Below are positions 9,875-22,869 of a stretch of 25,497 nt of DNA, piece by piece. The translations under genes and the position numbers were made by a program. Each line of letters opens with the position of its first letter. Within the stretch, counting starts at the first letter, position 1. The DNA lies in the IMG/VR virus record IMGVR_UViG_3300042261_001024, positions 1-25,497 of that record. One strand, given 5' to 3'. Below the pieces are notes generated by a model, which was not told the origin of the DNA, did no database searches, and saw only the letters and a program-made list of their open reading frames with translations. Source of the DNA: a virus.

Positions 9875-10054
9875 ATGACTAGCTCCGTTCCTACCGGCCA
9901 ATCCGGCACTGAAGATTACTTCGATATCACCAAGTTCGAAGAGCTGCTCAACCGCCTTGAGGGCTCCAAGGGCCGTCAACAGCGTCAGAAGTCCCTGGAA
10001 GGTCGTCGTGACATCTTCGCTCAGGGTCTCGCCAGCATGATGAGCAATTTCTGA
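9875..10054 (+). CDS. tandem small gene, copy 1 (59 aa, MTSSVPTGQ-tagged)
   Basis: This 59-residue protein starts MTSSVPTGQSGTEDYFDITK and continues into a basic helical region (LEGSKGRQQRQKSLEGRR) and a hydrophobic, Met-rich end (LASMMSNF). It has no cysteine and no recognised family. Its codons are mostly C- or G-ending (GGC, TCC, TTC, AAG, CTG), like the capsid gene, suggesting high expression. It follows a good extended -10 promoter but has no Shine-Dalgarno. The following gene (10067) encodes the same protein with one substitution. A role in the virion or in packaging is suggested by its location only. Confidence 0.85.
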   Translation: MTSSVPTGQSGTEDYFDITKFEELLNRLEGSKGRQQRQKSLEGRRDIFAQGLASMMSNF

Positions 10055-10066
10055 TCTTAATCAGTC

Positions 10067-10246
10067 ATGACGAGTTCTGTTCCCACAGGCCAATCTGGTA
10101 CCGAAGATTATTTCGATATCACTAAATTTGAAGAGCTCCTGAATCGTCTTGAGGGTTCTAAGGGTCGCCAACAGCGCCAAAAATCTTTAGAAGGCCGTCG
10201 CGATATCTTTGCTCAGGGCCTTGCCACGATGATGAGCAACTTCTGA
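10067..10246 (+). CDS. tandem small gene, copy 2 (59 aa, recoded duplicate)
   Basis: The 59-residue product is identical to that of the 9875 gene except Ser to Thr at residue 54. At DNA level about 32 of 59 codons differ synonymously, with copy 2 favouring T- or A-ending codons (TCT, GGT, TTT, AAA, TTA). The gap between the copies is 12 nt and contains a small hairpin CTGAT/ATCAG (10051-10064) covering the stop of copy 1. This is not a recent tandem slip; either an old duplication under very strong protein selection or capture of a diverged allele explains it. Function unknown. Confidence 0.85.
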   Translation: MTSSVPTGQSGTEDYFDITKFEELLNRLEGSKGRQQRQKSLEGRRDIFAQGLATMMSNF

Positions 10247-10271
10247 TTTTTTCTTGTAAGATTTATAAGCC

Positions 10272-20373: not shown

Positions 20374-21117
20374 ATGGCAGGGCTGATTTCAGCTGGCTCT
20401 ATTGTCGACCCAAGGGAAGATGTTTTCGCTACCAGTGGCGCCCATCTTGATGTACGCGTTATTCCAAGGTTTGGCGCACAGCAAGGAAAACGAATTAACC
20501 CTGAAACAGCACGAACACTCCTTCAAAACGTACTGATCGGCACAGGTAAAACACCTCTTGTTCAACAGGTAGGCAAAGACTGGCGTTGGAACTTTCCAAT
20601 TACAAGTAAATTTGGCCCTAGGAATACAAGAATTCCCGGCGCCTCTACTTACCACGAAGGTATTGATGTTGCTGGCGGCATGATTGCCCCCGGCACCCCA
20701 GTTGCCTACAAGGGCTACGGTTCTTATCAACCCGATCGTGGCTTTGGGACTATTCGCACAACTGATCCACAGGGAAACCCTTACGACATTCAACTACTTC
20801 ATACGAAACCTGGTGCAAAAGCTGAAGTAGGCTCTACTATTGCACCAAATGCACCACAGCTGCCACAAGATCCCCGACAACAGCAGCAACAATTAGACAC
20901 TAGAACATCGGATATTCTTGAAGCGTTTTTATACGGCACGGAATATCAAAAAGGACAAAAACAAGAACCAACTTTAAAAGATCAACTTGTAGCCGGAGTA
21001 TTATCTCAGGTTTTAAAACCGCAATCAACTTTTATTTCTCGTTACATCCAAGAAGAGCCATACATCCAAGGACAAGCGGCCTCTACCTATGACTATTTGT
21101 ACGGTCAGTTTCTTTGA
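20374..21117 (+). CDS. M23-like metallopeptidase with permuted motif order (247 aa)
   Basis: The core at residues 76-150 carries the M23/LytM signs: SKFGPR, the zinc motif YHEGIDVAG (His94 and Asp98), GTPVAYKG, and a LLHT His143 in the catalytic position. The usual C-terminal HLHFE-type motif is not after this. Instead a similar sequence, SGAHLDVRVIPRFG with INPETARTLL, lies before it (residues 21-53), so the domain reads as a circular permutation with HLD in place of HLH. M23 enzymes cut cell-wall peptide bridges; a virion-borne one would help penetration. The C-terminal 100 residues are Gln-rich, then helical, with no domain known. The start follows a terminator, without a clear Shine-Dalgarno. 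Confidence 0.65.
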   Translation: MAGLISAGSIVDPREDVFATSGAHLDVRVIPRFGAQQGKRINPETARTLLQNVLIGTGKTPLVQQVGKDWRWNFPITSKFGPRNTRIPGASTYHEGIDVAGGMIAPGTPVAYKGYGSYQPDRGFGTIRTTDPQGNPYDIQLLHTKPGAKAEVGSTIAPNAPQLPQDPRQQQQQLDTRTSDILEAFLYGTEYQKGQKQEPTLKDQLVAGVLSQVLKPQSTFISRYIQEEPYIQGQAASTYDYLYGQFL

Positions 21118-21128
21118 TTACTTCAATT

Positions 21129-21134
21129 TATAAT
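21129..21134 (+). promoter_or_regulatory. -10-like TATAAT before the original adaptor gene start
   Basis: A perfect TATAAT lies in the 39-bp gap between the M23-like gene and the truncated gene copy at 21157. No good -35 is visible at 16-18 bp. If active, it originally served the gene now interrupted by the HNH insertion. Confidence 0.35.
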
Positions 21135-21156
21135 GAATTGATAACAGGCAGTAGCT

Positions 21157-21252
21157 GTGCAGCTCTCTGATTTCGATAAGAGCCGGGTCCGGTATCATCT
21201 GGGCTACTTTACCGTTTCGGTTCCAGCGGGTGACTATGCCCGCCCTTCATAA
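21157..21252 (+). pseudogene. orphan 5' fragment of the 21770 gene
   Basis: From GTG 21157 the frame encodes VQLSDFDKSRVRYHLGYF and on to GDY (27 residues identical to the start of the intact 21770 gene), then diverges (ARPS) and stops at 21250. This is the left-over 5' end of the gene in its original place, directly downstream of the M23-like gene. At codon level 16 of the 27 shared codons differ from the intact copy, all silently. A 31-residue peptide could still be made, but a function is unlikely. The end overlaps the 3' end of the opposing HNH gene. Confidence 0.8.
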
Positions 21253-21728
21253 TTCAAAAATAAATTAATATCTACACACTTTTCTCCTCCCTTTAATTTA
21301 ATTAACGCAGCATATTTTTCTGGAGCTCTTGTTTTTATGTTGTGGCAAGTTCCGCATAAAATTTGACATTTTTTAATTTCATTTATAATTCTTTTTTTGT
21401 TTGTTTTTATTTCTCCTCCTACGTTAAAGCTTTTGCTATGCAAATGATCAATATCTAATCCTTCGGCCTCTTTGTTATATCCACAAACCGAGCACCCATA
21501 AAACACTTTTAAAGCATTAACCCATTCCCTCAATTCTTTTGCTTTTTCTTTTTGGTATTTTTTGCTTTGTTCTCTATTCTTTGCAAAAGCCTCCGGGCTC
21601 ATCCACAAGGGTTGACGTGTTCCATTTGGTTTTATTCTGCCCCACTGGCGAAAAATATAGCCATCTTCACGCACATCTCCAAATTTAAAAGGTTCACCTG
21701 TTTTAGGATTTAACTCACACGGTTTCAT
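21234..21728 (-). CDS. HNH homing endonuclease (164 aa)
   Basis: From the ATG at 21728 the protein has an N-terminal G/F-rich region (KFGDVREDGYIFRQWGRIK) and PLWMSPEAF, as in many phage and virus HNH endonucleases. A Lys/Glu helix follows, then the HNH domain: Cys79-x2-Cys82, DIDHL with His95, and Cys125-x2-Cys128-His129-Asn130 as the zinc and catalytic end. An upstream TTG at 21764 would add 12 residues. It is the only minus-strand gene in the right 23 kb and splits a duplicated gene start, so it is a free-standing homing endonuclease that nicks or cuts an allele lacking it. Codons are AT-rich. Confidence 0.88.
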   Translation of the reverse strand: MKPCELNPKTGEPFKFGDVREDGYIFRQWGRIKPNGTRQPLWMSPEAFAKNREQSKKYQKEKAKELREWVNALKVFYGCSVCGYNKEAEGLDIDHLHSKSFNVGGEIKTNKKRIINEIKKCQILCGTCHNIKTRAPEKYAALIKLKGGEKCVDINLFLNYEGRA

Positions 21729-21769
21729 GAAGATTGCTGTCGTAGAATTGTTTAATCGAGGCAAGGCTT
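21237..21769. mobile_element. homing endonuclease insertion with recoded target 5' end
   Basis: Homology between the truncated start (21157-21236) and the intact start (21770-21849) ends exactly where the endonuclease gene ends (GGTGACTA at 21229-21236). The extra DNA is therefore the HNH gene plus a new, silently altered copy of the target 5' end. The insertion has kept the target gene functional by supplying a replacement start. The exact right boundary cannot be set because the donor tract may continue into the intact gene. Confidence 0.75.
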
Positions 21770-22231
21770 GTGCAATTATCTGATTTTGATAAAAGCAGAG
21801 TGCGTTATCACCTAGGTTACTTTACTGTATCCGTTCCCGCTGGTGACTACAGCCGACTTGAAGAAGCGATGAATACGGTTCCAGATTCTTATTTTTACGA
21901 CAAACTTATTATTCAATTAGGTCGCTGTGACACAGCCGAAAAGAAAACGGAGGTGGCGACTTCGCCTTCGACTCGGTTGGAAAGCATTGCTGGTGACGTT
22001 GACCGTACAATTCGGTCAAGCAATGCCAGGGAAGCGCTTAAGGTCTGGGACGAGATCTATCTTTACGAGACCAATCGATTAGCCAATATTCTTTACGTCC
22101 CCAACTACAAAGATCCATTCCAGGCGCGTTACCGTTATGAACGCTCAGGTGCTGAATTTATTCAAGCTTTACCTGGTCCTGCTGACACTGCAGTGGGCTC
22201 TCGTATTTATTTGCGTGAGGTTTGTCGATAA
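21770..22231 (+). CDS. putative head-tail adaptor/connector protein (153 aa)
   Basis: This intact 153-residue protein starts from GTG (VQLSDFDKSRVRYHLGYF). It is acidic and mixed alpha/beta with a central helix (SIAGDVDRTIRSSNAREALKVWDEIY) and C-terminal YRYERSGAEFIQAL. Size, position downstream of the capsid genes and upstream of tail-like proteins, and conservation of its first 27 residues under heavy codon change suggest an essential connector or neck protein, but no family is recognised. Its 5' end is the version delivered with the HNH insertion. The stop overlaps the next ATG (TAATG). Confidence 0.65.
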   Translation: MQLSDFDKSRVRYHLGYFTVSVPAGDYSRLEEAMNTVPDSYFYDKLIIQLGRCDTAEKKTEVATSPSTRLESIAGDVDRTIRSSNAREALKVWDEIYLYETNRLANILYVPNYKDPFQARYRYERSGAEFIQALPGPADTAVGSRIYLREVCR

Positions 22232-22869
22232 TGTGGAATTTAGTGGGCCGAGTTGGTAGTTTATTTACGGGCGCTGGTCGGTTACCTAGATCCTTTAGGC
22301 CCGGCCCAACATCTGGCGCGGGTAAAGTCTTTCAAGCACTCGGTGGAATCGAAAGCGCTTCCCTGGGTTTAGGCGCCATGTTGTACGGTTCTGACCTGTT
22401 ACAACAGCAGATGGAGCGTATGGGCCTTATTCCAACAATAAAAAAACCAAGCGCGGGGGGTTCTTCTCCACCCAGAAAAACCCCTCCGGCCCCCGACTTG
22501 AATACGAGTTTATATGGTGGGCCGCAAGCCGGACAACTGACACCCCCTGTACCTCCTTTAATTGGAGCGGGGGTCATGTCTAACGGGGCCGGTGTTCCCG
22601 CACAACGTGAAAATGTTCTTAACCGCTCACTGTCTCAGGAAGTACTTAACGCTGCTCAGCAGTACGCTGCTCCTACAAGTGTCCCTCTTTCTGCCTTCTA
22701 TGAGGGCCAGCAGCAATTGGGTAGGAGCATGATGCAGAAAGGAAACCTGGTGAGCGAACTCCAAGCCTTAGGTGCGGGGACGGGCATGACACCCGAAAAC
22801 TTCCAGCAGTGGGTGAAAGCCAACCCGGGCCTTGCTTACCGCGAGATGTTGCGTCTAAAACAAATGTGA
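22231..22869 (+). CDS. hypothetical Gly/Pro-rich protein (212 aa)
   Basis: I take the ATG at 22231 that overlaps the previous stop (TAATG); a TTG three codons earlier is also open. The product has a basic Gly-rich N-terminus (GRVGSLFTGAGRLPRSFRPG), a short hydrophobic Gly/Leu segment near residues 38-55 (ALGGIESASLGLGAMLYG), a Pro-rich linker (about 78-115) and a Gln/Ala-rich helical C-terminus. Composition is like the other glycine-rich virion-type proteins of the window. No domain is recognised. Confidence 0.65.
   Translation: MWNLVGRVGSLFTGAGRLPRSFRPGPTSGAGKVFQALGGIESASLGLGAMLYGSDLLQQQMERMGLIPTIKKPSAGGSSPPRKTPPAPDLNTSLYGGPQAGQLTPPVPPLIGAGVMSNGAGVPAQRENVLNRSLSQEVLNAAQQYAAPTSVPLSAFYEGQQQLGRSMMQKGNLVSELQALGAGTGMTPENFQQWVKANPGLAYREMLRLKQM

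Follow-up and report, generated by a model that had tools for sequence, protein, structure and literature searches.

The window, a 25.5-kb IMG/VR virus record (25,497 nt) related to the freshwater cyanophage S-EIV1, very probably (we estimate about 0.83) contains a mobile HNH cassette of ~610 bp that was inserted at about codon 30 of a conserved phage gene, spreads by homing and supplies the gene with a replacement end. The terminase, virion and capsid proteins of the window match phage families. The conserved 153-aa product of the target gene (21770–22231) is 89% identical to an S-EIV1 protein and belongs to phrog_29158, a family of unknown function; its structure model reached a pLDDT of only 33, and the label "adaptor-like" in the original prediction could not be upheld. 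The cassette consists of an antisense HNH gene, a leader with promoter-like and ribosome-binding signals, and a divergent version of the first 30 codons. Insertion pushed the native start upstream as a relic and put the carried start in frame with the body of the native gene, leaving the protein essentially unchanged. The features are as follows:

20374–21117, plus strand: gene flanking the insertion on its left (upstream) side, which in phage S-EIV1 is an M23 peptidase; from tblastn to relatives.
21118–21156, plus strand: the target gene's native leader, which includes a promoter-like TTTATAAT box at 21127–21134; a similar leader precedes the start in empty relatives.
21157–21252, plus strand: relic, the displaced native 5′ end, comprising 27 identical codons, Ala-Arg, then diverging sequence and a TAA stop at 21250–21252; 76/81 nt to the empty relative L013 (the relic of L099 is 81/81 to its isogenic empty relative L105).
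21234–21728, minus strand: HNH endonuclease gene, 164 aa (phrog_3106, E 3e-24; model pLDDT 91.6).
21729–21769, plus strand: element-carried leader, read from the sequence, with promoter-like TAGAAT at 21743–21748 and Shine-Dalgarno-like GAGG at 21758–21761; the leaders of L098 and L099 are similar (0.69–0.76 identity).
21770–21859, plus strand: replacement 5′ end, start codon and codons 1–30, with Ser28; the differences end at codon 30 in an isogenic pair.
21860–22231, plus strand: native body of the target gene, right flank; the body of L008 is 91.9% identical.

The two starts, at 21157–21237 and 21770–21850, encode the same 27 residues (VQLSDFDKSRVRYHLGYFTVSVPAGDY). Our recount agreed with the original prediction that they differ in 16 of 27 codons (18 of 81 nucleotides) and that every change is silent; when 18 changes were placed randomly, the protein was preserved in 0 of 20,000 trials. 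In a flank-duplication screen with 266 control windows, in which the best control gave an E of 6e-5, the window pair scored about 9e-18, and the four relic-bearing loci of the target gene all reached ~1e-17 or better. The gap between the copies is occupied, as had been described, by the HNH gene, which is intact and lies on the minus strand; alignment with relatives begins at the ATG at 21726–21728, which is therefore a likelier start than the TTG at 21764. The homology was also said to end exactly at the HNH stop, which is close but not precise: the relic continues past codon 27 with GCC CGC (Ala-Arg, codons 28–29) and breaks at about codon 30. Since relic homology runs past the HNH stop, a TAG at 21234–21236, this stop codon lies inside target-gene sequence.

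At the target-gene site, the HNH gene is absent from all 80 of the 80 best (close) relatives, and S-EIV1 is likewise empty. The left copy, leader included, looks like a native start, L013 being the example given above, and HNH-less relatives carry the single, 21157-like start that had been expected of them. The right copy has no close match among empty loci; a search for an HNH-less relative with a 21770-type start found none, the best empty match being 68/81. Between the near-isogenic L099 (with the cassette) and L105 (with none at the site), identity is 97.6% across the 4,009 nt that end at nt 89 of the gene. The relic of L099 is identical to the native start of L105 at all 81 positions, and relative to L105 a 520-nt insert has entered at a single point, near nucleotide 89. 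The functional start of L099 matches the native one at 65/90 nt, through silent changes and A28S with none beyond codon 30, and identity returns at codon 31 (body 352/369). In a second pair, L098/L062, the body is 97.8% identical and the start just 59/81. Whenever the bodies of an empty pair are at least 95% identical, the starts are at least 96% identical. Therefore, the start alone was replaced, and the L099/L105 comparison bears out the earlier proposal that the element brings a replacement 5′ end while the gene is kept intact. The insertion is precise, and the displaced end can be told from the carried one: the former matches close relatives, the latter does not.

The same breakpoint recurs in different phage backbones. 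Relics at four loci (the window, L082, L098 and L099) all break after GDYAR, each matching its own backbone, and the corresponding functional starts carry 16–18 silent codon differences, with Ser28 replacing Ala28. Of 98 empty loci, 95 have Ala28, and all 13 cassette loci, which are not independent of one another, have Ser28; the contrast gives a Fisher p of 5.5e-8 when six element starts are compared with 81 distinct empties. Five further contigs, L083–L087, possess the HNH gene and carried start and lack both relic and native leader, so that the relic either is not obligatory or has been lost over time. These contigs could represent the ancestral donor state or relic loss.

The HNH genes are under purifying selection: they are intact, with dN/dS of 0.04–0.16 (0.09–0.16 for the window HNH against its relatives), and the HNH residues (DH) and zinc-knuckle CxxC residues are invariant. 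The HNH profile matched no PDB sequence, and a fold search gave only a weak HNH match, 4h9d (E 0.03). Relatives at 66–72% amino-acid identity occupy the same place in the same orientation at the target gene. Target specificity follows HNH clade, as the HNH tree groups by target, with values of 100/99 for the target gene of the window and 99/98 for the terminase large-subunit gene (terL); the grouping for the HHH-domain gene is weak (85/39).

We propose that the HNH enzyme would cut the uninterrupted gene near codons 28–31 in a co-infecting phage, and that repair from the cassette-bearing genome would copy the cassette in. Relic and leader would provide the homology on the left, the gene body that on the right. 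With Ser28 at the junction among its differences, the carried end would have diverged far enough to leave no intact site, and the divergence of the two copies would make recombination between them less ready. We infer this cleavage, homing and resistance of the carried end.

The original prediction had attributed the silent changes to purposeful recoding that destroys the cleavage site; the comparison does not establish this, as the divergence does not exceed the family background. Empty family members are identical on average at 65.4 of 81 nt in the start, and among random empty pairs 39% have no more than 63 positions in common; 18 differences in 81 are thus ordinary within the family, and the divergence may just be that of a foreign end. 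Apart from purposeful recoding and the exact boundary at the HNH stop, the earlier model was largely right. L098 and L099 have carried starts that agree at 87/90 nt (96.7%), compared with 81% for their relics and bodies, and their carried leaders show 0.93 identity, against 78% at the nucleotide level for their HNH genes. The higher likeness of the starts than of the HNH genes is unexplained by simple joint descent of the cassette. Across the element starts of L098, L099, L082 and L084, identities of 87/90 and 82/90 stand against 78% and 74% for the HNH genes, so the starts are more conserved. Starts and leaders thus look as if they had been subject to DNA-level selection or separate exchange, and Ser28 at the junction, together with conservation of the carried end at the DNA level, hints at resistance.

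Judged by sequence, gene-end replacement occurs at four different genes of a freshwater cyanobacterial virus family, including the essential terminase. We counted 35 sites in 33 contigs, some of them near-copies of one another, with two cassettes per phage in two cases (L099 and contig 3300034122_001663). At the 3′ end of an HHH-domain gene, 13 contigs carry a related HNH gene, about 45–52% identical to that of the window. In this class the functional end has its own stop and a terminator-like repeat, the HNH gene follows the 3′ end of the gene, and the native end with its terminator forms a relic on the far side of the HNH gene; near-identical empty phages (L038, L040, L052 and L073) have an HHH-gene end of the relic type. 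These duplications are short (10–11 codons), and the class is supported by isogenic comparison, not by the flank-duplication screen. L111 has an HNH gene at the HHH gene with no evident relic. At the 3′ end of terL, 15 contigs carry a sense-strand HNH gene after the terminase gene, and a 19-codon end, stop included, is duplicated, with 9–16 codons differing, mostly without amino-acid change. For the terL pair L325/L358 (L325 being the L245 contig), whose flanks are about 99% identical near the site, the relic matches the native end at 56/57 positions and the gene copy at 35/57. The 3′ end of a DUF3310 gene is the target in L117/L118.

Several further arrangements were observed at these and other genes. 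In L145 (2730–3225), the same end duplication at the DUF3310 gene accompanies a different type of nuclease, which on inspection looks NUMOD4/HNH-like. In L140 (2730–2785) and L141, the functional DUF3310 end is followed by a second gene-end relic with no nuclease, probably the scar of a lost cassette. The HHH-gene 3′ ends of L046 and L050 mix native and carried types without an HNH gene; these chimeric ends are probably scars of cassette loss by excision or conversion. Two ends, IDGTTGLRTCDE and IDGTTGLRSCDS, each closed by a stop, flank an HNH gene in L287 (1500–3000; E 8e-5), which makes this a possible fifth target gene. The terminase large-subunit gene of L095 (2561–3800) contains an intein-like insert with C...HN-C ends, seen by eye in the translation. 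Within the window, 9875–10258 holds a 192-nt tandem repeat with two 59-aa genes (9875–10246; 58/59 residues and 150/192 nt identical). We considered it as a second silent duplication and rejected it in favour of an ordinary family of tandem genes: the copy number in relatives ranges from one to three, in tandem, and a nuclease was not seen there.

We weighed three other origins for the duplicated start. Illegitimate recombination between two divergent phages could have left tandem start alleles beside an HNH gene that is a neighbour by chance, without homing. Such an event would fit the divergence between the copies, which is at the normal inter-lineage level, and L083–L087, where the HNH gene is simply upstream with no relic, might be its donor state. 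We nevertheless regard it as unlikely, given one breakpoint in four backbones, the same design at three further target genes, HNH clades tied to their targets, and clean point insertions between flanks about 97–99% identical. One illegitimate recombination event may, however, have produced the first capture of a gene end.

A metagenome assembly chimera joining two strains at a conserved gene would fit two facts: the relic-bearing cassette loci are all assembled metagenomic contigs, and the gene ends are conserved at the protein level. It is nevertheless highly improbable, because many samples yielded independent contigs with the same junctions and with the HNH gene intact in every one; the HHH class has 13 contigs and the terL class 15. 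We also give very little credence to a splicing element, either a group I intron or an intein, that restores the gene at the RNA or protein level. An HNH gene inside coding sequence is typical of both, but here it is antisense, and in the terL class the gene end and its stop come before the HNH gene. Moreover, splicing would be redundant for a second copy that comes with a start and leader of its own. No match to Rfam intron families was found in 20900–22300, and with the gene restored in DNA by the carried end, the intron reading was rejected. A homing HNH cassette with a replacement gene end thus remains the preferred reading.

It is an even call whether such gene-end-replacing cassettes make up a general class of phage mobile elements that has so far gone unrecognised, a third way beside introns and inteins of living inside coding sequence. 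In it, different HNH clades and at least one nuclease of another type (L145) would each have captured one end of one gene with its promoter or terminator, and the carried end would be under DNA-level selection as the element's immunity to its own enzyme. The replacement of gene ends explains how a homing endonuclease can reside in essential phage genes (terminase and conserved structural-region genes) without intron, intein or gene splitting. It predicts that selfish elements repeatedly swap the ends of conserved phage genes, and the predicted silent tracts and scars would resemble recoding or recombination. With near-isogenic empty and full pairs and predicted cut sites for several nucleases, homing, immunity and loss are now testable.

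Among phage elements, the cassette has the intact nuclease gene and the sporadic presence with empty alleles that characterise free-standing HNH homing elements. It resembles the seg and mob genes of T4 as sporadic selfish endonuclease genes with empty alleles in relatives and conserved neighbours; T4-type genes are free-standing or split a gene (mobE in nrdA), and a replacement gene end is not described in the passages searched (PMC2988022). Nor is one described in the searched passages of a phage nuclease survey (PMC10448857). The HNH genes of Skunavirus, mostly HmuI-like, have recurrent locations with phylogeny linked to location, and a term search of that study found no gene-end duplication (PMC12724721). 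The phrog_3106-type HNH proteins of Klebsiella phage KP34 and T7-like phages belong to the same family, at 37–43% identity, and in KP34 and others the HNH gene adjoins the DUF3310 gene at its 3′ end. Beside 13 cultured-phage HNH loci (KP34, EFA-2, 536_P3 and ten others), no convincing relic was found, only weak or tRNA-gene-consistent matches.

The closest parallel lies in fungal mitochondria, where, as the original prediction had pointed out, elements follow a comparable logic; we found no description of gene-end duplication in phages in the open-access literature. Mobile ORFs in fungal atp6, atp9, cox2 and nad3 bring along a divergent C-terminal end, the native end is displaced, and the resulting hybrid gene is expressed, with examples in Allomyces atp6 and Glomus atp6, atp9, cox2 and nad3 (PMC3630166). 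In a fungal survey, a free-standing GIY-YIG gene was duplicated along with the atp9 N-terminus (PMC7487136). The phage cassettes share with the fungal mobile ORFs a nearly synonymous, in-frame replacement end and a displaced native end that matches close relatives (PMC3630166). The fungal ORFs encode LAGLIDADG or GIY-YIG enzymes and replace mainly C-terminal ends in mitochondria, whereas the phage cassettes encode HNH enzymes, reside in tailed phages and affect both 5′ and 3′ ends. Unlike the fungal ORFs, they also supply promoter- or terminator-like signals and comprise several dedicated HNH clades. As an HNH nuclease in a tailed phage, the element of the window therefore works like the fungal mitochondrial mobile ORFs and is not a member of their class.
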